DNA from: a virus
Direction: 5' to 3' (one strand)
Virus record (IMG/VR): IMGVR_UViG_3300025141_000219
Location: 1 to 42,639 of that record
DNA length: 42,639 bases
The notes under the pieces were generated by a model. That model had not been told where the DNA came from. It saw only the letters and a program-made list of their open reading frames with translations, and did no database searches. The position numbers were made by a program, and so were the translations under genes. Positions 18,807-42,639 of the stretch are shown here, one piece after another. Every line of letters begins with the position of its first letter. Positions within the stretch are counted from its first letter, which is position 1.

Positions 18807-18878
18807 TACAATCTGTGGCAGGTCATAGACCGTTGCTCGCTGGCAAGGCGGGGGACGGTCTTTTTTTGTGGGAGCGAT
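18807..18878 (+). ncRNA. Promoter and structured leader of scaffold/capsid operon (copy 2)
   Basis: tacaat (18807-18812) is a good -10 box. A hairpin follows at 18827-18861: lower stem agaccgt/acggtct, upper stem ctcgc/gcggg, loop tggcaag, then seven T, and the Shine-Dalgarno gggag before ATG 18879. It is homologous to the portal leader at 6086-6156. The hairpin plus T-run resembles an intrinsic terminator, so regulation by read-through is plausible. Confidence 0.6.
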
Positions 18879-19751
18879 ATGGCAGACGAGTCAGAGAACG
18901 GGTCTACCGCCGTCCAGTCACTCGCAGAGGTATACGCCGAGCAGGCGGATGCCGCGAAGGTGACTACGGACATCCCGGGCGTATCGTCCGGCGATGCCCT
19001 ACCGGAGGCGCAGGACCCGGCGGGCAGCGGTTCTACGGAGCCGCCCCCCGACGCGACTAGTGACCAGACCAACGGTTCTACGGAGCCGGGTGCCGACCCT
19101 GAGGGTTCTGCGGAGCCTGCTGACGGGAAGGGTTCTGCGGAGCCTCAGGCTGGGACGGTCGATCTGGACAACCTCACGGACGATGCCTTCGACCGCATCA
19201 TGCAGCACCCGAGGATGGTGAAGAACCAGGACGACCTGGTACGCCGGACCCGGGGCGACATCGATACGGAGAGGGCGCGAATCCAAGAGGAGCAAGCGGT
19301 GAAGGAGCGCGAGGACGCCGTCCTCAACGGAGACCAGCCCAAGCTGGCCGAACTCCAACGCCAAGAGCGCACTCAGATTCTCCAAGACCGACTCCAGAAT
19401 ACCGTGTCGCTACAGATAGCTGACGGTGTTCACGACCTTCTCGCCACGGACGGCCACGGCGTGGAGTGGACCAGTTCAGATCGACAATCCTGCAAGAACA
19501 CCTCCCAGATCTTCGACCGATGGCGGGGCAAGCTGATCGAAGGCAACGATGCCAAGGTTGAAGCCCGGGCCAAGGAGATTGCTGACGCTCGTGCCGTGGA
19601 AGACGCGGACGCTCGACGCCGGGGCATCCCGGCACCGTCCCGTAGTTCCGGCGCGGCTGCTGGGGGTGAGGCGCAGAAACCCGGACCAAACGCAAGTATC
19701 GCTGAGATCCACGCTTATGAGATGGACCAGGCGAGACTGGCTGCTTCATAG
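18879..19751 (+). CDS. Probable scaffolding protein, 290 residues
   Basis: Placed directly before the major capsid gene, as scaffold genes usually are. It is strongly acidic and helical with few aromatic residues. Residues 50-85 hold four GS(T/A)EP repeats in a flexible part, residues 115-170 form a long charged helix (RTRGDIDTERARIQEEQAVK), and the C-terminus ends in a basic helix-like stretch, the typical capsid-binding end. Assignment rests on position and composition, not on a specific motif. Confidence 0.65.
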   Translation: MADESENGSTAVQSLAEVYAEQADAAKVTTDIPGVSSGDALPEAQDPAGSGSTEPPPDATSDQTNGSTEPGADPEGSAEPADGKGSAEPQAGTVDLDNLTDDAFDRIMQHPRMVKNQDDLVRRTRGDIDTERARIQEEQAVKEREDAVLNGDQPKLAELQRQERTQILQDRLQNTVSLQIADGVHDLLATDGHGVEWTSSDRQSCKNTSQIFDRWRGKLIEGNDAKVEARAKEIADARAVEDADARRRGIPAPSRSSGAAAGGEAQKPGPNASIAEIHAYEMDQARLAAS

Positions 19752-35154: not shown

Positions 35155-35200
35155 ACGCAAAAAGGCCCGGCCCCCCGAAGGGGACCGGGCCTGTTTGCGT
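35155..35200. terminator. Bidirectional terminator between convergent operons
   Basis: Stem acgcaaaaaggcccgg against ccgggcctgtttgcgt (16 positions, one mismatch), extended by cccc/gggg around a short loop. It lies immediately after the resolvase stop and just before the integrase stop on the other strand. On the minus strand the stem is followed by a five-T run, so termination of leftward transcripts should be strongest. Confidence 0.75.
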
Positions 35201-36134: not shown

Positions 36135-36232
36135 GCGATCACCAGCACGATCACCATCAGGCCGAGCAGGAGCGCAAACACCGCCAGTTCGGCGATGAAG
36201 ATCAGTACCTCTCGGATGACGTTACTCACCAT
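36131..36232 (-). CDS. 33-residue single-pass membrane peptide
   Basis: Short frame fitted exactly between its neighbours: its ATG overlaps the stop of the upstream gene by seven bases and its TGA overlaps the integrase ATG (ATGA). The product is almost one hydrophobic helix (EVLIFIAELAVFALLLGLMV and on) after a short polar start. Exact packing on both sides supports real translation. It may be a small membrane effector or mainly a coupler for integrase translation. Confidence 0.55.
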   Translation of the reverse strand: MVSNVIREVLIFIAELAVFALLLGLMVIVLVIA

Positions 36233-36489
36233 AGATCAGAACCATCCTCTGCCTGCACCCGGTATCGGACCGGCAGGCCGCTCGCCGTCTGGCTCTTGTA
36301 GTGCTGGACCCTCTTCCGCCGCCCGTTGTCGATGCCCCGGACGATCCGGTGAGGATCCTTGAACTGGCGAGCTATCGCCTTGACGGCCTCCCACGGCGAC
36401 TCGGCATCGATGACTCGGGTCGTTGCCCCTTGCCCTTCGATGGCGCGGTCGGTGGTGGACCGACGAACTCTGTACTGGGCCGTCTTCAT
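36226..36489 (-). CDS. Hypothetical basic protein, 87 residues
   Basis: Start at ATG 36489 (minus) chosen because aggagg lies just upstream. Strand-helix-strand pattern with SPWEAVKAIARQF; a similar GPWDAVRRALAVRY occurs in the 182-residue gene at 38238, suggesting a shared small domain in this operon. Basic surface residues (NGRRKRVQHYK) hint at nucleic-acid contact. No family named. Confidence 0.65.
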   Translation of the reverse strand: MKTAQYRVRRSTTDRAIEGQGATTRVIDAESPWEAVKAIARQFKDPHRIVRGIDNGRRKRVQHYKSQTASGLPVRYRVQAEDGSDLW

Positions 36490-36511: not shown

Positions 36512-36565
36512 GCCGCCTTGTTGGCGGCTCACGGTCCCCCGCCGGGCGGTCAGGCCCGACGGGGG
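36512..36565 (-). ncRNA. Intergenic RNA module A (minihelix type)
   Basis: On the minus strand: a 12-position stem (36536-36547 with 36554-36565, one mismatch) with six-base loop ctgacc, then ACCG, then a second hairpin gccgcc/ggcggc (36512-36528), then the Shine-Dalgarno of the 87-residue gene. It starts nine bases after the DUF932 stop. One of seven such hairpins in the operon. Confidence 0.7.
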
Positions 36566-36574
36566 TGGTGTCCC

Positions 36575-37834
36575 TTACCGGGCCACCTCGACCAGCACCT
36601 TGTCGGCGTCGTAGGCCGACTCGTACTGGGCCTCTGGCAGGTTCAGCACGTACCCACCGAGGGACTCCAGCTGGTGCCGGTCCTCGATCAGGTTCTGGTG
36701 CTGGGCTGCCCGGGTGATGGCGTTGACTACGCCGCCACGGGTGGCCTCGAACTCCTGGTCCAGCGAGAACAGCAACTGCTGCGTCTGAAGCTGGGTCAGG
36801 TTGGCGACCTTCCCTATCGCCTTGAGGCGGGTCCGGGGATCCTCATCGACCTGGGAGGTCTTCTGGATCCACGCCTCGATGAACTGCGGCGTGGCCTCGA
36901 TGGCCGCCAGGATGCCCTCCCGCAGTTCGGTCTCGATGACCGCCTGGAAGTCCGTGGACCACTGGCTGCCCTGGTGGCGCTTGTCCCACACCCGCTCCTC
37001 GGACACCAGCCCGTTGGAGCAGGTCACCCGGAACAGCCGGGGAGCGATGACGGTGCCGCCGTCGCCGACCTCGGAGTTCGAGAACCAGATCCCGCCGTAG
37101 AAGTCGTCGCCGGGCTTGAGTCCCTCGACGCGGACGTGCTTCCCCTGCTCGCCGCCGTAGGACGGGTTGCCGGTGTAGCGGTGGTCCTTGAACACCAGGC
37201 CCAGGTGGAACTTGGTGTCCGAGATCCCGAACGTGTCAACCTCCAGGTGGTCCGCGTCGATCCGCCCGGACAGGGCGTTGATCAGCGGGGCCAGGATCTG
37301 GTGGTTGTCGAAGATCCGGTAGCGATTCGAGAGGACCGCCCGGACCTTGTCGCCGGACCCCCGAATGAGGAACCGGCGGTCCTGCGCCGACTTCACCCGG
37401 AGCAGGTCGTTGGCGAGGTTACCGAAGACGCGAGGCTGGGCCTCGACCTTGCCCTTGCCCTTGACTAGCTGCCGGACGTAGCGGACCGGGATCTCCAGCC
37501 GGGTGGAACCCAGCTGCTCGGTGGCCCAGTCGTTCAGCGCGAACTCGGCGATGAACTGCGAGTCCCGAGGACCGTACAGCCCGTTCGGGCTGACGGCGTG
37601 TTGGCTACCCAGGACCGCGAGGTCCAGGTTGCCGGTGGGGACGGTGCCCGCCGTGGCCGCAGAGATGCGGACCTGTGCCGGATCAACGTCGTGAACGTCC
37701 CAGCTGGACGCGGCGTGAGCGCCAACCTGCCGGATGACCGGGGCTAGCTGCCCCAGTTTGTCGGCGTCAACGCGGAGGTTGGAACCCTCAGCGAACTGCC
37801 GGATGCCGTCGGACGGCTGATACTCGATTTCCAT
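36575..37834 (-). CDS. DUF932 family protein, 419 residues
   Basis: Start ATG 37834 (minus) follows tggagg; the longer in-frame start is inside the upstream module and is rejected. The core motif KVRAVLSNRYRIFDNHQIL and the later FRVTCSNGLVS are typical of DUF932 (phage/plasmid TIGR03299-like) proteins. Their role is unknown; many mobile elements carry them near replication or early genes. C-terminal 130 residues are helical. Confidence 0.8.
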   Translation of the reverse strand: MEIEYQPSDGIRQFAEGSNLRVDADKLGQLAPVIRQVGAHAASSWDVHDVDPAQVRISAATAGTVPTGNLDLAVLGSQHAVSPNGLYGPRDSQFIAEFALNDWATEQLGSTRLEIPVRYVRQLVKGKGKVEAQPRVFGNLANDLLRVKSAQDRRFLIRGSGDKVRAVLSNRYRIFDNHQILAPLINALSGRIDADHLEVDTFGISDTKFHLGLVFKDHRYTGNPSYGGEQGKHVRVEGLKPGDDFYGGIWFSNSEVGDGGTVIAPRLFRVTCSNGLVSEERVWDKRHQGSQWSTDFQAVIETELREGILAAIEATPQFIEAWIQKTSQVDEDPRTRLKAIGKVANLTQLQTQQLLFSLDQEFEATRGGVVNAITRAAQHQNLIEDRHQLESLGGYVLNLPEAQYESAYDADKVLVEVAR

Positions 37835-37851
37835 TGCGACCTCCAGTCGCA

Positions 37852-37910
37852 TGCCGCCCCATCAGGGGGCAGCCTGGTCCCACCGGCACCGAATCAACGG
37901 CACCGGGGGG
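37852..37910 (-). ncRNA. Intergenic RNA module B (minihelix type)
   Basis: Stem of 13 positions with three mismatched positions (37879-37891 with 37898-37910), loop ttgatt on the RNA, directly followed by ACCA as at a tRNA 3' end, then the second hairpin tgccgcccc/gggggca (37852-37872) and the DUF932 Shine-Dalgarno. It begins six bases after the upstream stop. Confidence 0.6.
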
Positions 37911-37915
37911 AAGAC

Positions 37916-38155
37916 CTACCGGAAGAATCCGGGGGGCCTTGTGACCTGCGCGAAGACCGGCTGCTTAGAATCGGGGCTGATCTCGTACCAGCCTTTCCGG
38001 TTCTTCACGCTCACGACATCTCTGTCGGTGACCTTCTCCACCGCCGCCATGCCGCTCCGGGCGAGGACGAAGTTCATGTCGATGAAGCCTTCGCCGATCG
38101 CGCCGTAGCGGCGGACGGTGTACAGGTTGACCAGAACGTCGACGTGCTTCGACAT
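37916..38155 (-). CDS. Hypothetical small protein, 79 residues
   Basis: ATG 38155 (minus) with aggga upstream. Beta-rich with VLVNLYTVRRYGAIGEGFID and a basic middle (VVSVKNRKGWYEI). It is framed by modules B and C. Function unknown; no motif recognised. Confidence 0.6.
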   Translation of the reverse strand: MSKHVDVLVNLYTVRRYGAIGEGFIDMNFVLARSGMAAVEKVTDRDVVSVKNRKGWYEISPDSKQPVFAQVTRPPGFFR

Positions 38156-38173
38156 CGGGGTCTCCCTTCGATC

Positions 38174-38231
38174 GTCAGCCCCCCAGCGGGGCCGACACGG
38201 TCCCCACCTGGCCGGTCAGGGCCAGGTGGGG
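38174..38231 (-). ncRNA. Intergenic RNA module C (perfect minihelix)
   Basis: The clearest copy: 12 perfect pairs (38202-38213 with 38220-38231), loop ctgacc, then ACCG, then a second hairpin (38174-38196) and Shine-Dalgarno aaggga. The length of 12 pairs equals the stacked acceptor and T stems of a tRNA. It begins six bases after the stop of the upstream gene. Confidence 0.75.
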
Positions 38232-38237
38232 TAGGTC

Positions 38238-38786
38238 CTACTGGACCCAGGACTCGCGGGCAGCCGGGACGATCCGGTAGCGGGCGGTGGCCCACTCAGG
38301 GCCGAGCGCCTTCACCTGCTCGATGGCGTCCTGGGCCTCGGCCTCGGTCGCGCTGAACGACTCGTCGAGGGGTTCCCAGGCACCATCGAGGTCTTCGATG
38401 TACTCGTTCACCGCCTGGGTGACCTGGGCCTCGACCTCGAAGCCCACCTCGTACCCAACCTCCGGGAGGGCCTTGGAGAGCGAGAAGATCTCGCCCTCGT
38501 CCCTGAAGGTCCGCTGCGTGGCGTAGCCCTCGTGGGTGAATCCGCCATCTTTATCGATGACATGCCAGCCGGTCGCCCGCCACTGGTTGGTGCCTCGGTC
38601 CACGTCCACCCCGCCGACGGTCAGGTTGGTTCCGTACCTGACGGCCAGCGCCCGGCGGACGGCGTCCCACGGTCCATCGGCCTTGATGACGATCAGCCCG
38701 GACTCCGGGTAGAACTCTTCCCCGAGACGAAAGTCGGGCTTAGCGACCCTACATTTGACCAGGAACTCGTGTTGCTCTTCGGCCAT
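38238..38786 (-). CDS. Hypothetical protein, 182 residues
   Basis: Start ATG 38786 (minus) after aggagg. N-terminal domain contains GLIVIKADGPWDAVRRALAV, similar to SPWEAVKAIARQF in the 87-residue gene, and continues with Trp/Thr strands. The C-terminal half is acidic and helical (FEVEAQVTQAVNEYIEDLDG). The longer frame upstream runs through a tRNA-like element and is rejected. Unknown function. Confidence 0.65.
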   Translation of the reverse strand: MAEEQHEFLVKCRVAKPDFRLGEEFYPESGLIVIKADGPWDAVRRALAVRYGTNLTVGGVDVDRGTNQWRATGWHVIDKDGGFTHEGYATQRTFRDEGEIFSLSKALPEVGYEVGFEVEAQVTQAVNEYIEDLDGAWEPLDESFSATEAEAQDAIEQVKALGPEWATARYRIVPAARESWVQ

Positions 38787-38837
38787 GACGGCCTCCTCTA
38801 TTCGATGCGCCGCCCCATCAGGGGGCAGCAGCACGGT

Positions 38838-38915
38838 GGACCTGTGGGGAATCGAACCCCAGTACCCGACGTGCCGACATGCGGTGTTACGTCGGGGCAA
38901 TCCATTCGCAGGCCC
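38838..38915 (-). tRNA. tRNA-like element 1 with shortened D-arm (78 nt)
   Basis: Minus strand. Acceptor gggcctg/caggtcc (seven pairs, one G-U), T-arm tgggg-ttcgatt-cccca, discriminator A then CC. The D-arm is reduced to gcg-aatggat-tgc (loop with the conserved GG). The central stem ccgacgt/atgtcgg encloses an eight-base loop aacaccgc instead of seven, and the variable region is 12 bases. So it has two sound ends and a deviant middle; amino-acid identity cannot be read. It occupies the minihelix place of module D; the second hairpin is 38806-38830. Confidence 0.45.
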
Positions 38916-38918
38916 GGT

Positions 38919-38946
38919 GCCCGGGGGGGACGGGACACCCCCGGGC
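38919..38946 (-). other. Strong hairpin 5' of tRNA-like element 1
   Basis: Nine perfect pairs gcccggggg/cccccgggc with a ten-base loop, three bases upstream of the acceptor stem on the minus strand. It may insulate the tRNA-like element or be a processing site. Confidence 0.55.
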
Positions 38947-38949
38947 GTA

Positions 38950-39030
38950 GCATCGAGGCCGCCCGCCGCCGAAGCGACGAGCGCCGACTGGACGAACCGT
39001 TCAGTCGGTAGTTGCCCCGGTCCTCGATGC
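38950..39030 (-). ncRNA. Candidate three-way-junction RNA (81 nt)
   Basis: A perfect nine-pair closing stem (gcatcgagg 38950-38958 with cctcgatgc 39022-39030) encloses two hairpins: 38984-39008 with seven pairs plus an inner acg/cgt, and 38964-38979 with six pairs closed by a UUCG loop (one G-U). The region 38947-39075 has no convincing gene, and a further palindrome aggcggc-ga-gccgcct lies at 39044-39059. The fold is too regular to be chance; function unknown. Confidence 0.5.
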
Positions 39031-39075
39031 GTGTTCGTGGTCCAGGCGGCGAGCCGCCTCCCACAGGTCCATCGT

Positions 39076-39435
39076 CTAGATGTGCGGTATCGACCCGGTG
39101 CCGTCCACCAGGTCAGCGATCTCCTGGCACAGCTTCACAGCTGCCTCGTTGCGACCATCGATCAGCGCCCCGTCATCGGCGCTGCACACCGCGCCGTAGG
39201 TGACCAGCACCTCGATGAACCAGCGCACCGTACCCTGCTGGAGGGTCCGGTGATCGTGAACCAGGGCCTCCACGAAGGTGGCGACCGTGTTCACCCCGCC
39301 GCCGTTCAGCGCGTTGCTGAGGTCACGCTGGATGGCCTCGACGCCGTGGTCCCGGACTTCGCTCACGTCGGTCAGAACGCTTTGGAAGCCGGTGCGGAGG
39401 CGCTCGACGGCCTCGCTCTTGTCGTAGAAGTTCAT
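39076..39435 (-). CDS. Hypothetical helical protein, 119 residues
   Basis: ATG 39435 (minus) with aaggga-gg upstream. All-helical composition (AVERLRTGFQSVLTDVSEVR; TVATFVEALVHDHRTLQQG) and a C-terminal cysteine-containing helix. No family recognised. It lies between module E and the structured region 38947-39075. Confidence 0.65.
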   Translation of the reverse strand: MNFYDKSEAVERLRTGFQSVLTDVSEVRDHGVEAIQRDLSNALNGGGVNTVATFVEALVHDHRTLQQGTVRWFIEVLVTYGAVCSADDGALIDGRNEAAVKLCQEIADLVDGTGSIPHI

Positions 39436-39453
39436 GCGAACCTCCCTTTGAGA

Positions 39454-39509
39454 GCCACCCCATCAGGGGGCGGCCTGGTCCCCGACTGGCCGGTCAAGGC
39501 CAGCCGGGG
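39454..39509 (-). ncRNA. Intergenic RNA module E (minihelix type)
   Basis: 12-position stem with one mismatch (39480-39491 with 39498-39509), loop ttgacc, followed by ACCA exactly as at a mature tRNA end, second hairpin gccacccc/gggggcggc (39454-39474) and Shine-Dalgarno. It begins eight bases after the stop at 39518. Confidence 0.7.
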
Positions 39510-39517
39510 TGACGCCG

Positions 39518-39716
39518 TCAGTCGATGACGATGTCGTCGTCGGGGTTCTTCACGGCCAGGCAGGCCGCGACGATGTTCCCCGGCGTCGCCGACCCGAACG
39601 GGGTCGGCAGGATGTGCGTCCCGAACAGGTCCAGGATCGTGTCGGCGTCGGCGGCCCGAGCGTTGTCGGCCTGCCAGCTGCCGTCCTGGACGAAGAGGCG
39701 GATGACGCCGCGCTCA
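39518..39716 (-). pseudogene. Frameshifted 3' part of the 125-residue gene
   Basis: A natural coding sequence (VIRLFVQDGSWQADNARA ... KNPDDDIVID) with no possible start codon lies directly after the 39714 stop in the +1 frame. Its stop at 39518 has the standard distance to module E. One G less in the five-base run at 39719-39723 (minus) would fuse both parts into one protein of 190 residues. So it is a sequencing error, a recent frameshift, or a +1 programmed shift at a GGAGGGGGCC-TGA site. Confidence 0.65.
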
Positions 39717-40091
39717 GGCCCCCTCCGGTGGGGTGACCGTCCAACCCTCGTTGGTCAAAACCTTGACGGCGTGGTCGATGCGCTCCTGGAGCCGCTTCGC
39801 CAGCTTCTCTTCGCGCTGTTCGACTTCCCAGCGGTTGCCGGTCTCGTCGAAGTAGCGCTGGTATGCGATGCGCTTCCGCCCGGCCTGCGCGGCGGCCAGC
39901 GACTTCGCTCGGCCCGAGGTGCGGTTCCGGTTGAAGACGCTCTGCTCGGTGCGGACGAACTCGTCGGCCCCGAACTCGTCCCTCCAGGAGAGGATGCCGT
40001 TCCAGACACCAACCAGGAGTTCGCCGTCGGGTCCAGGCGCTGCGCCGAAGTCGAGCGCCTCGCTCTGTCTCAGTTCCACTACGTAGCTCAT
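39714..40091 (-). CDS. Hypothetical protein, 125 residues (probably continues by frameshift)
   Basis: ATG 40091 (minus) with tggagg upstream. N-terminal strands (SYVVELRQSEALDF; ELLVGVWNGILSWRDEFG) and a basic middle (FNRNRTSGRAKSLAAAQAG) are followed by a long helix and GWTVTPPEGA before TGA. The stop interrupts what looks like a continuous protein; see the entry for 39518-39716. Function unknown. Confidence 0.65.
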   Translation of the reverse strand: MSYVVELRQSEALDFGAAPGPDGELLVGVWNGILSWRDEFGADEFVRTEQSVFNRNRTSGRAKSLAAAQAGRKRIAYQRYFDETGNRWEVEQREEKLAKRLQERIDHAVKVLTNEGWTVTPPEGA

Positions 40092-40110
40092 GCGAGCCTC
40101 CATCTGCTGC

Positions 40111-40170
40111 GAACCCCACCCGTTCGGGGGTTCACGGTCCCGACGGGGTCGAGTCAACGACCCCGGCAGG
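40111..40170 (-). ncRNA. Intergenic RNA module F (minihelix type)
   Basis: 13-position stem with two mismatches (40139-40151 with 40158-40170), loop ttgact, then ACCG, second hairpin gaacccc/ggggttc (40111-40133) and Shine-Dalgarno tggagg. Begins nine bases after the upstream stop. Confidence 0.6.
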
Positions 40171-40179
40171 TGCCGGTGC

Positions 40180-40638
40180 TCAGGTTGTGCTGATGCGTCC
40201 GGTGAAGATGCGTCCGGTGAATTCCCCGCCGACCTTGCCGGTGGCGAGCGCCTCCCGCGCCGCCTTCAGCGTGGGGAATCGGTCGAGGTTGAAGGCGTCC
40301 GGATCGAATCCCAGTTCGGAACCGTGCCAGATGACCCACTCGTCGTTGCAGAGCGAGCGGTCAATGTGCAGCTTCGTGCCGGGGACATCGTAGCTCGTAA
40401 TTCTTGACGATCCGGAGATCGCCGCCGTGCGCTCGTAATTCTTGACGATCCGGAGATCGCCGCCGTGGTCGCGGCCATAGGCAAAGACGATGCCGAATTG
40501 CTGGTTGATCGCGTCTTGCGCTATCGCAGCGCCGCCAGTGATGCCCTGATAGTGGTCGTTTTCGACTGCTGCCTGAACGCGCCCCAACTCGAGCTTGGCT
40601 CGACGGATCGCAGCCAGTGCCTGTGTCTTGCTGGTCAT
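40180..40638 (-). CDS. Hypothetical protein with internal 38-bp duplication, 152 residues
   Basis: ATG 40638 (minus) after tggagg. N-terminal helix (TQALAAIRRAKLELGRVQAA), middle DLRIVKNYER then a second translation of the same DNA in another frame (TAAISGSSRITS), then a natural C-terminal part with SLCNDEWVIWHGSELG. The duplication length is not a multiple of three, so the two copies are read in different frames, yet the frame stays open. Function unknown. Confidence 0.55.
   Translation of the reverse strand: MTSKTQALAAIRRAKLELGRVQAAVENDHYQGITGGAAIAQDAINQQFGIVFAYGRDHGGDLRIVKNYERTAAISGSSRITSYDVPGTKLHIDRSLCNDEWVIWHGSELGFDPDAFNLDRFPTLKAAREALATGKVGGEFTGRIFTGRISTT
40393..40468. repeat. 38-bp tandem duplication
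   Basis: Two copies of a unit beginning gctcgtaattcttgacg, at 40393 and 40431, identical over 37 bases. The unit sits inside the 152-residue gene. It is either a recent slippage duplication or an assembly artefact. Confidence 0.85.
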
Positions 40639-40659
40639 GATTGTCCTCCAATATGCTGC

Positions 40660-40716
40660 GGACTCCCCTCGTCGGGAGTCCACGGTCCCCGCCAGGCCGG
40701 TCAGGGCCTGGAGGGG
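40660..40716 (-). ncRNA. Intergenic RNA module G (minihelix type)
   Basis: 12-position stem with one mismatch (40687-40698 with 40705-40716), loop ctgacc, then ACCG, then the second hairpin ggactccc/gggagtcc (40660-40681) and Shine-Dalgarno tggagg. Starts seven bases after the upstream stop. Confidence 0.72.
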
Positions 40717-40723
40717 TGGACCT

Positions 40724-41233
40724 CTACCAGCTGTAGAGTTCCGGGTAGCAGGCGGCCAGCCGCCGCTCTTCGTACTCGATCCGGTCGTCGTCCAGCGCCG
40801 ACGGTGTCGGTGCCGTCCGGGTAGTGCTGGCGACCTTGTGGAAGCCGAACGTGGCGGTGACCCACCAGGCCACCTTCACGTCGTCACCGTGGGTGCTGGT
40901 CAGCTTGATGATGTCGCCGACGCTGGTGGAGCGGACCTCGGTCGAGCAGGTCGTCCAGTAGCCGGTCCCATTCTCGAACCAGTAGTCCTCGATGGTGTTC
41001 GACTGGCGGTACGCCTCGTCCAGAACGTCGCCGTCCGGGATGAGGATCAGTCCGGTCTGCCGGGTGGCGACCAGGTCGTACTTGCCGGTGCCCAGGGCGG
41101 CCAGGGCTGCCTTCGTCTTCGCCGGGTCGGCGTCCGGCGCAGGACCGGAGTCGCCTCGGATGTCGTCTCGCTCGTCTCGGCTGGTGCGGTCCCAGTTGAG
41201 GTGGAGAACGTCGATGCGTGTCTTTGCGGCCAT
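40724..41233 (-). CDS. Hypothetical protein, 169 residues
   Basis: ATG 41233 (minus) after aaggagg. Mixed alpha/beta: VLHLNWDRTSRDERDDI at the start, a helix KTKAALAALGTGKYDLV, then Trp/Tyr-rich strands (IEDYWFENGTGYWTTCSTEV; VKVAWWVTATFGFHKVAS) and an acidic C-terminus. No family recognised. Framed by modules G and H. Confidence 0.65.
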   Translation of the reverse strand: MAAKTRIDVLHLNWDRTSRDERDDIRGDSGPAPDADPAKTKAALAALGTGKYDLVATRQTGLILIPDGDVLDEAYRQSNTIEDYWFENGTGYWTTCSTEVRSTSVGDIIKLTSTHGDDVKVAWWVTATFGFHKVASTTRTAPTPSALDDDRIEYEERRLAACYPELYSW

Positions 41234-41252
41234 GATGGCCTCCTTTGACTAC

Positions 41253-41315
41253 TGCCGGGCAGCCCGTCGCTGCCGTTGGCATGGTCCCCAGGTCGCCGGT
41301 CAGAGCGGCCTGGGG
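41253..41315 (-). ncRNA. Intergenic RNA module H (minihelix type)
   Basis: 12-position stem (41286-41297 with 41304-41315, one wobble and one mismatch next to the loop), loop ctgacc, then ACCA, then the second hairpin (41253-41281: tgcc/ggca outside, ggcagc/gctgcc inside) and Shine-Dalgarno. Starts ten bases after the upstream stop. Confidence 0.68.
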
Positions 41316-41325
41316 TGGTAGTGAG

Positions 41326-41658
41326 CTACCGGTAGATGGTGGTGACGTGGCTCTCGCCTTCGAGGCCCTCGATGAGCCGGTCGTAGGTGAGGGCGTCGGA
41401 CCTGGCGTCGATCCGGCAGATGTCCTCGACGTGTACCGAGGCCACCAGGCCAGCGGGGCGGAACGTGTCCACCCGGTAGACGACCGTCTCGGCCCGGGCG
41501 TAGCCCCGGTTGCCCTCGGTCCCGTACCACTGATAGCCGGGGTGCTTGGCGACGATGATGTCGCCGGACCGTGCGACGACCTGGCCGTCTGGCTGGTCAT
41601 GCAGGCCACTGATGACGGCCTTGCCGTCGATGCTGCGGATGGTTGTGAAGGTTGCCAT
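41326..41658 (-). CDS. Hypothetical beta-rich protein, 110 residues
   Basis: ATG 41658 (minus) after gggagg. Sequence is beta-rich (GQVVARSGDIIVAKHPGYQW; AETVVYRVDTFRP) and ends with IEGLEGESHVTTIYR. A very long frame continuing to 42255 runs through two tRNA-like elements and is rejected. Function unknown. Confidence 0.65.
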   Translation of the reverse strand: MATFTTIRSIDGKAVISGLHDQPDGQVVARSGDIIVAKHPGYQWYGTEGNRGYARAETVVYRVDTFRPAGLVASVHVEDICRIDARSDALTYDRLIEGLEGESHVTTIYR

Positions 41659-41705
41659 GATGGCCTCCCGTTGCCTGCGAGCCGCGCCCGTCGGCGGCTC
41701 ACGGT

Positions 41706-41774
41706 GGATCAGCCCGGAATCGAACCGGGGGAAGCAGGAGTATGGAGTCCCGCTGGCGTCCATCGCCCTAACCC
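41706..41774 (-). tRNA. tRNA-like element 2 with shortened D-arm (69 nt)
   Basis: Minus strand. Acceptor gggttag/ctgatcc (seven pairs, two G-U), D-arm gcg-atgga-cgc (three pairs), central stem agcggga/tcctgct with eight-base loop ctccatac, variable region of three bases, T-arm cccgg-ttcgatt-ccggg, discriminator A then CC. Same unusual plan as element 1. If the loop were read as CT-CCA, the anticodon would suit Trp, but the base after it is T, so I give no identity. A hairpin gccggg/cccggc (41779-41795) lies 5' of it; the second hairpin of module I is 41679-41700. Confidence 0.45.
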
Positions 41775-41804
41775 AGGTGCCGGGGGCGACCCGGCGTCGT
41801 CCGC

Positions 41805-41987
41805 CTAGCAGTCGTGGAGCCGACCGTCTTGAGCGAACCAGAAGAGGTGCGGCGACGTGGGCGAGTTGCCCTCGGCGACGAAGCACCCACCATCGACGAA
41901 CACGTCGATGCGGACGCCGGGGTTGGCCCGGCTGATGCAGACTGCCTCGGCCTTCGCGGCCTCTTCGTTCTGCGCCTTGAGGATCAT
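41805..41987 (-). CDS. Hypothetical small protein, 60 residues
   Basis: ATG 41987 (minus) after caggag. N-terminal helix MILKAQNEEAAKAEAV, then strands RIDVFVDGGCFVAEG and a Trp/Phe-containing end. Three cysteines are scattered, no zinc motif. First gene of the leftward operon, close to the right genome end. Confidence 0.6.
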   Translation of the reverse strand: MILKAQNEEAAKAEAVCISRANPGVRIDVFVDGGCFVAEGNSPTSPHLFWFAQDGRLHDC

Positions 41988-42033
41988 GGTGATCTCCTGT
42001 GTCAGCGACCAGCACGCGTCGGCTGGTCACGGC

Positions 42034-42079
42034 AAGGCCACCGGGTCTCGAACCCGGCCATCCCCAAGCGGTTGGCCCT
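42034..42079 (-). ncRNA. tRNA-like element 3: acceptor plus T-arm only (46 nt)
   Basis: Minus strand. agggcca pairs with tggcctt (seven pairs, one G-U); T-arm ccggg-ttcgaga-cccgg; discriminator G then CC. Only 15 bases replace D- and anticodon arms. It lies in the minihelix place of module J (second hairpin gaccagc/gctggtc, 42007-42028). A longer reading with a 5' acceptor near 42105-42110 gives 77 bases but needs a bulge and has no anticodon arm. It could also be a phage copy of a tRNA 3' end (attP-like). Confidence 0.45.
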
Positions 42080-42500
42080 GTGATTGTCCTGTCGATTTGC
42101 CGGTTGGCTTGTCCGCCGAGACCCGTTGCTCTGGTCATCGCCTGCCCTGGCTGCTCGGTCCCTGCTCGCTGCCCTCGTTCGCTCTGGGGAGCCTCACCGG
42201 GGGGGTTCACCGTTCGCCTTGGCCTGCTCTCGCAGACCGCGCCTTGCGGGACCATCTCCCCCGATCCGGGTTGCCGTCAGTTCGGGTGGTGTCTCGTCTG
42301 CCGCGTGTTGTCCGCTCCTCTGGCGGGGGGCCTCGGCTGACCCATTTTCTTCACCCACTATCGGCGGGTGATGTGGATGGTAACACGAACAAGGCACATA
42401 ATGTTACGCAAGTTCCGAAAGATTTTCTGTTACCCCCCGGGTGACCCCGTGGGGACACCGGGGAACGGCCAGCTGGACCCGGGCCGTGGACCCCCAGACC
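42080..42500. other. Non-coding right end
   Basis: No supported gene. 42110-42360 is GC-rich without strong signals. 42370-42435 is distinctly AT-richer and holds three copies of tgttac/gtaaca (42380-42385, 42402-42407, 42428-42433), two of them as an inverted pair. This is the only good place for the promoter and operator of the leftward operon, whose first gene starts at 41987, but no exact -35/-10 pair is clear. Confidence 0.45.
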
Positions 42501-42639
42501 CCACAACTCTAGGCCCACGTGGACCCACGTGGACCTACGTAGACCTACGTAGACCTACGGGTCCCCGGCGGGAGTCCAGGGCCGGTGGTGTCCCCGGACC
42601 GGGCCAGCGGAGGCCCCGGGGGGGGGGCTGGACCTAGAA
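42501..42639. repeat. Direct terminal repeat, right copy
   Basis: Repeats bases 1-138 with one extra G in the G-run (10 instead of 9). It contains the same five decamers. See the left copy for meaning. Confidence 0.85.

Follow-up and report, generated by a model that had tools for sequence, protein, structure and literature searches.

The question raised by this locus is why every gap between the genes of a leftward phage operon holds an RNA element shaped like part of a tRNA, and what such elements may do there. We analysed the whole 42,639-nucleotide stretch of the IMG/VR record IMGVR_UViG_3300025141_000219 (hereafter, the window), which derives from an unclassified phage whose genome looks complete, judging from an overlap of ~139 nt between the window ends. 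It encodes YqaJ, RecT and DnaB proteins and a tyrosine integrase, and its capsid belongs to the family of Myxococcus phage Mx8 (top match, 38% identity). The leftward unit, on the minus strand, starts upstream of 42079 and includes small genes without assignment, a DUF932-like gene (weak Pfam match) and the integrase gene, and it is closed by a terminator:

35163-35192, minus strand: terminator of the leftward unit, 13 bp, UUCG loop, U-tract; directly 3' of the integrase gene

This closing terminator (35192-35163) is of the canonical U-tract type, and the internal gap elements differ from it; a second true U-tract terminator of the window lies near 18827-18867. The minus-strand operon gaps contain neither U tracts nor promoter-like sites, and the identity of the gap elements as U-tract intrinsic terminators was rejected for want of a U run. 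Codon statistics hold up along the genes and break down between them, with coding potential gone from every gap. Folding of the upstream leader (42085-42400) is unremarkable (z -0.9), and Rfam offers no meaningful match to it.

Hairpins and tRNA-like elements in the operon gaps

Seven gaps share one layout, in which a hairpin of 12-13 positions with the loop YTGAYY (helix I) is followed by ACC(A/G), a second hairpin (helix II), a Shine-Dalgarno and the start codon. Helix I starts 5-10 nt past the upstream stop codon in these seven gaps, and its stem has 12 positions in five copies and 13 in two (h4 and h7), with one mismatch in four of the seven. All seven open with a C1-G72 pair, and their hexaloop is not a T loop. 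Folded singly, the hairpins have z scores of -3.4 to -6.3, and the fourth base 3' of helix I doubles as the first base of helix II in several copies.

Both strands of the window were scanned for hairpins of 12-13 bp (one mismatch allowed) with the loop YTGAYY and ACC(A/G), and for tRNA-like elements with a 7-bp acceptor, a 5-bp T stem, a TTCRANN loop and NCC(A/G). The hairpin scan yielded exactly seven matches (5' ends at 41315, 40716, 40170, 39509, 38231, 37910 and 36565) and the tRNA-like scan exactly three (42079-42030, 41774-41702 and 38915-38834). These are the numbers given in the preliminary description of this DNA, which had claimed seven gap hairpins with six-base YTGAYY loops, flanked by RCC(A/G), and three further gaps with tRNA-like elements and an RCC(G) flank. 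All ten matches lie on the operon strand, in operon gaps and inside 36512-42079; the rest of the window is free of matches on both strands, and its 60 dinucleotide shuffles gave 0.0 matches for each scan. When the loop sequence was left free (12 bp, a 6-nt loop and ACC), there were five matches in the window versus 0.4 in the shuffles. Counting from T1 as far as the beginning of the gene at 36226-36489, ten elements occupy the ten true gaps, one per gap, and RCC lies directly 3' of the helix in each (CCG, not CCA, in seven). The elements, in operon order, are:

42030-42079, minus strand: T1, tRNA-like; 7-bp acceptor, 15-nt linker, 5-bp T stem, loop TTCGAGA, GCCG
41702-41774, minus strand: T2, cloverleaf; acceptor GGGTTAG/CTGATCC (G3-U70), T arm CCCGG-TTCGATT-CCGGG, ACCG
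41286-41315, minus strand: h2 helix I; 12 positions, loop CTGACC, then ACCA
40687-40716, minus strand: h3 helix I; 12 positions, loop CTGACC, then ACCG
40139-40170, minus strand: h4 helix I; 13 positions, loop TTGACT, then ACCG
39480-39509, minus strand: h5 helix I; perfect 12 bp, loop TTGACC, then ACCA
38834-38915, minus strand: T3, tmRNA-type tRNA-like domain; Rfam tmRNA E 1.4e-14, G3-U70, A73, ACCG
38202-38231, minus strand: h6 helix I; perfect 12 bp, loop CTGACC, then ACCG
37879-37910, minus strand: h7 helix I; 13 positions, loop TTGATT, then ACCA
36536-36565, minus strand: h8 helix I; perfect 12 bp, loop CTGACC, then ACCG

T1-T3 occupy the same gap position as the hairpins, with RCCG and then helix II, and have a common build (7-bp acceptor, 5-bp T stem, TTCRANN loop, RCCG). 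T2 folds unaided into a cloverleaf with middle arms of 4 bp and 7 bp, and its lower half lacks the tRNA consensus. T3 resembles the tRNA-like domain of tmRNA (Rfam RF00023) in its acceptor G3-U70, stemless D-like stretch, single long middle helix and T arm; it differs in being 82 nt long, in having a CCG end and in scoring 42.5 bits, under the 47-bit cut-off. The message part and the pseudoknots are absent from it, with 16 nt where the model has 308 positions, and a complete tmRNA was rejected in favour of a tRNA-like domain only, without a tag reading frame. For T1, the weak Rfam match was to mascRNA (21.8 bits against a cut-off of 42.5; E 0.71 in one search and 0.047 in another). Identity as tRNA genes fails for the elements, given that ARAGORN at default settings calls none and that neither T1 nor T2 has an Rfam tRNA match; permissive ARAGORN output was discarded as noise. 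T2 and T3 both carry G3-U70, A73 and G1-C72, and their acceptor and T stems are perfectly paired. The folding energies of T1-T3 are unexceptional (z -0.9 to -1.6); the case for them rests on their exact tRNA geometry. T2 and T3 each have an extra upstream hairpin ending in ACC, visible in the sequence and, for T3, also in the fold.

Helix II is a hairpin of 6-10 bp between the element and the Shine-Dalgarno, and it is also present after T1-T3. Its sequence varies and its pairing is kept, as judged by eye in the folds; the second hairpin, Shine-Dalgarno and next gene described earlier for each of the hairpins were all seen in folds and sequence:

42005-42030, minus strand: helix II after T1; from the fold, GTGACCAGC...GCTGGTCGC
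41677-41702, minus strand: helix II after T2; from fold and sequence
41253-41281, minus strand: helix II of h2; from the fold
40658-40683, minus strand: helix II of h3; from the fold
40109-40135, minus strand: helix II of h4; from the fold
39453-39475, minus strand: helix II of h5; from the fold, GCCGCCCC-CTGAT-GGGGTGGC
38805-38834, minus strand: helix II after T3; from the fold
38173-38197, minus strand: helix II of h6; from the fold
37853-37873, minus strand: helix II of h7; from the fold, GCTGCCCC-CTGAT-GGGGCGGC
36512-36528, minus strand: helix II of h8; from the fold

Covariation between copies and the search for relatives

Between the hairpin copies the loop is conserved and the stem sequence is not. 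Covariation was evaluated in the five 12-bp copies, all from this single genome, in which 96.7% of cells are paired and 6 of the 12 pairs have changed on both sides (10 cells), a level that 0 of 500 shuffles reached. Sliding the partner by one column lowered the pairing in these copies to 53-58%. The stem covariation between copies noted earlier is therefore borne out for copies in one genome. A covariance-model check had been suggested. With a model built from the same five copies, the matches beyond the training set were h4 (E 0.017) and these stems read as reverse complements; an unrelated site in the DnaB gene also reached E 0.017, h7 scored only E 0.89, and the cluster K phage Pixie gave no match. 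The operon proteins are not paralogous to each other in a protein comparison, so gene duplication was rejected as the origin of the repeated elements.

No related phage, and no second genome with the system, turned up among the searchable records of IMG/VR, the 85k genomes and the annotated phages, and close relatives may exist beyond these; the covariation evidence is therefore confined to copies within one genome. Only remote homologues were returned when viral contigs were searched with five proteins (DUF932-like, DnaB, the 688-aa protein, integrase and capsid) and when annotated phages were searched with six proteins or the operon DNA. Matches to the motif pattern in viral contigs and the 85k genomes were all judged to be chance, as the stem was unpaired or poorly paired or the match lay within coding sequence; two cases were a group-I-intron-like context (L003) and a terminator (L070). 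DUF932 phages and Pixie contained no arrays.

The ESAS/SAS repeats of cluster K mycobacteriophages are similar in being inverted repeats of one orientation upstream of the Shine-Dalgarno and start of many non-structural genes (PMC3203893). In contrast to the gap elements, ESAS have arms of constant sequence (TGTTGA...) with spacers that vary, accompany a 13-bp SAS and lack RCC or tRNA forms (PMC3203893). The 13-bp SAS (GGGATAGGAGCCC, up to 3 mismatches) had 15 matches versus 21.8 expected, none of them in the operon gaps, and identity with the cluster K system (a 13-bp SAS and sequence-conserved 17-bp repeats) was rejected, the model search of Pixie agreeing.

Proposed processing by RNase P and its alternatives

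Taken at the RNA level, the data support a family of elements that share the shape of a tRNA's acceptor/T half followed by RCC, and for which fuller tRNA mimics stand in at the same place. The determinants of RNase P cleavage are the 12-bp stack of acceptor and T stems, which the enzyme measures, and a 3' RCC, to which the GGU of RNase P RNA pairs; the bacterial enzyme also cleaves acceptor/T hairpins (PMC11143913). This part of the preliminary description draws on established features. Natural non-tRNA substrates include pre-tmRNA, the phage M3 and C4 RNAs and T4 gene 32 mRNA (PMC11143913). The gap elements are like these, and like the AT1 acceptor/T model hairpin, in their 12-bp acceptor/T-like helix, 3' RCC and phage or mRNA context (PMC11143913), whereas they differ from such single sites in forming a serial array, one per gap, with a YTGAYY loop and a C-G opening pair. 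A continuous helix of ~12 bp is present throughout (12 in five, 13 in two and 7+5 in three), and all ten have a 3' RCC able to pair with GGU. As CC after the discriminator is an anti-determinant for RNase Z, the elements suit RNase P better.

The best reading, to which we give a little less than an even chance, is tRNA-mimic punctuation in which host RNase P would cleave immediately 5' of each element. The earlier proposal of processing akin to tRNA punctuation thus stands as to the tRNA-half geometry, the RCC and the fuller mimics at the same place, and is weakened by the loop and the opening pair: the T-loop contact and G1-C72, which RNase P favours and does not strictly require, are lacking in the seven hairpins, unlike the TTCRANN loops of T1-T3, and the YTGAYY loop and C1-G72 would be the weaker features for this enzyme. 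Counting further against RNase P are the conservation of a hexaloop that it does not need, CCG in place of CCA in most elements, and very strong stems just past stop codons, which are also terminator-like; counting for it are the canonical terminator at the true end of the unit and gaps without U tracts or promoter-like sites.

The main rival to RNase P punctuation, which we regard as unlikely, is that helices I and II are U-less tandem intrinsic terminators or attenuators that stop or pause some polymerases after each gene and so create an expression gradient, with a phage antitermination factor perhaps overcoming the double hairpins. The GC-rich, strong stems 5-10 nt past the stop codon agree with this, and consecutive hairpins form a recognised terminator class, but the gaps offer no promoter-like sites for a restart and the unit closes with a normal U-tract terminator. 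Terminators without poly-U are reportedly described for the early region of actinophage phiC31 in a report by Ingham from 1995 (cited in PMC8355165 and PMC4411717). The phiC31 hairpins, in gaps of an actinophage early region, likewise lack a U tract; the two differ in that promoter-like gap sites are absent here, and a constant loop, RCC and tRNA-like substitutes are not known to belong to the phiC31 system. Termination would leave unexplained the invariant loop and RCC, likewise the swap for a cloverleaf and a tmRNA-like domain.

It is rather improbable that the YTGAYY hexaloop and the ACC linker are recognised by a phage RNA-binding protein whose role is message stabilisation, translational control or antitermination. 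Such a mode would resemble that of boxB or of the double-hairpin put RNA of HK022. A conserved loop on an unconserved stem and the recurrent two-hairpin layout would suit a binder, which could be among the small unassigned operon proteins, but no reliable match to a known RNA-binding family was obtained for any operon protein, and T1-T3 stand in the same place without YTGAYY.

We give an equally low chance to passive hairpins, comparable to REP/PU elements, that block 3' exonucleases or prevent translational coupling with no dedicated enzyme, the T elements being decayed phage tRNA or tmRNA genes that came to play the same part. A stable stem does follow each stop codon, and T2 and T3 lack tRNA function; an exact helix length, loop and RCC would, however, not be kept under this explanation, and the perfectly paired acceptor and T stems of T2 and T3 are undecayed. 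Decoys or sinks acting in trans on a host tRNA-binding factor (RNase P, AlaRS or EF-Tu), with incidental gap placement, are very improbable. T2 and T3 do carry the alanine identity elements G3-U70 and A73, which would favour this reading; against it, none of the seven hairpins has a third-position G-U pair, and strict one-per-gap placement throughout one operon would be needless.

Proposed division of the operon into single-gene messages

Returning to RNase P punctuation, we tentatively propose that the phage operon is divided into single-gene messages by the host enzyme at serial, stripped tRNA minihelices. One message would begin upstream of T1 and extend to the U-tract terminator 3' of the integrase gene, with each true gap holding the top half of a tRNA in RNA form, a coaxial helix of ~12 bp that is acceptor/T-like and closes with R-C-C. 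Of these elements, seven would have been worn to a plain hairpin, with T2 retaining more of the tRNA, T3 the tRNA-like domain of tmRNA and T1 the acceptor and T arm. With a probability somewhat below even, this would be an operon-wide tRNA punctuation by RNase P in a virus of bacteria, its elements grading from a cloverleaf by way of tmRNA-like and acceptor/T forms down to the bare 12-bp hairpin.

Host RNase P would gauge the helix while its GGU loop pairs with RCC, and would cleave at the 5' edge of the element once the ribosome has terminated and departed; for the seven hairpins this site lies 5-10 nt past the upstream stop codon. A short unprotected tail would then remain on the upstream message, and the downstream message would be capped by a 5'-terminal hairpin that may shield it from 5'-end-dependent nucleases, with helix II maintaining a folded leader and an accessible Shine-Dalgarno. 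The outcome would be separate messages of differing stability from one promoter, as in mitochondrial tRNA punctuation, with minihelices. The two systems are alike in placing tRNA-shaped RNAs between the genes of one transcript as proposed cleavage marks, and here every true gap has one (10 of 10). They differ in that this is a phage, seven of the ten elements are bare minihelices with no working tRNA among the ten, helix II and a Shine-Dalgarno follow, and cleavage is putative.

We know of no earlier case of a phage using a tRNA-processing enzyme to divide an operon, and tRNA-mimic punctuation would be new in a phage as far as is known. Even if another enzyme were involved, an RNA element that covaries, has no Rfam match and occupies each gap of an operon is new. 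If the RNase P reading is true, this would be the first known case of a phage borrowing a tRNA-processing enzyme for operon division, and the hairpins would be natural minimal RNase P substrates, showing a tRNA worn down to the part that the enzyme reads.

Further hairpins and the leader of the operon

In the leftward operon, whose gaps hold bare hairpins or tRNA-like elements followed by ACC or RCC, an additional hairpin with GGC-ACC at its end stands immediately before each of two tRNA-like elements, T2 (41702..41774) and T3 (38834..38915):

41774-41804, minus strand, hairpin of ~6 bp before T2
38916-38946, minus strand, hairpin of ~9 bp before T3

Because of these extra copies, the combination of hairpin and ACC occurs ~12 times in the operon, tRNA-like examples included. 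Upstream of T1 (42030..42079), the third tRNA-like element, lies a purine-rich, non-coding leader of ~300 nt (42085-42400, minus strand), for which no Rfam match was found and whose fold was not unusual.

Genes and junctions of the operon

The 125-aa gene (region 39520-40091, minus strand) ends at 39714, followed by neither a gap nor an element, and coding statistics continue to 39520 in a different frame. A programmed frameshift, an overlapping gene whose start is not of the usual kind, or an erroneous base within a G run could each account for this change. The sole junction near the operon end without gap or element is at ~36135-36236 (minus strand), where an unlisted hydrophobic peptide frame of 33 residues overlaps both neighbours. 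Within the 152-aa gene, a unit of ~35 bases occurs as a tandem repeat (40395-40468, minus strand), with CGGCGGCGATCTCCGGATCGTCAAGAATTACGAG present twice.

Record ends and a plus-strand terminator

Positions 1-139 and 42501-42639 are direct copies differing by one base, in a G run, which makes it probable that the assembly is circular and complete, at ~42.5 kb. One canonical terminator stands before the gene at 18879-19751:

18827-18867, plus strand, U-tract terminator

The DUF932 family in another phage

The operon has a DUF932-like gene (weak Pfam match). Gordonia phage VanLee (L032 5732-10903) has a gene of the DUF932 family close to both a tRNA gene and a gene for a Ro-like RNA-binding protein; the family is possibly linked to structured RNA.
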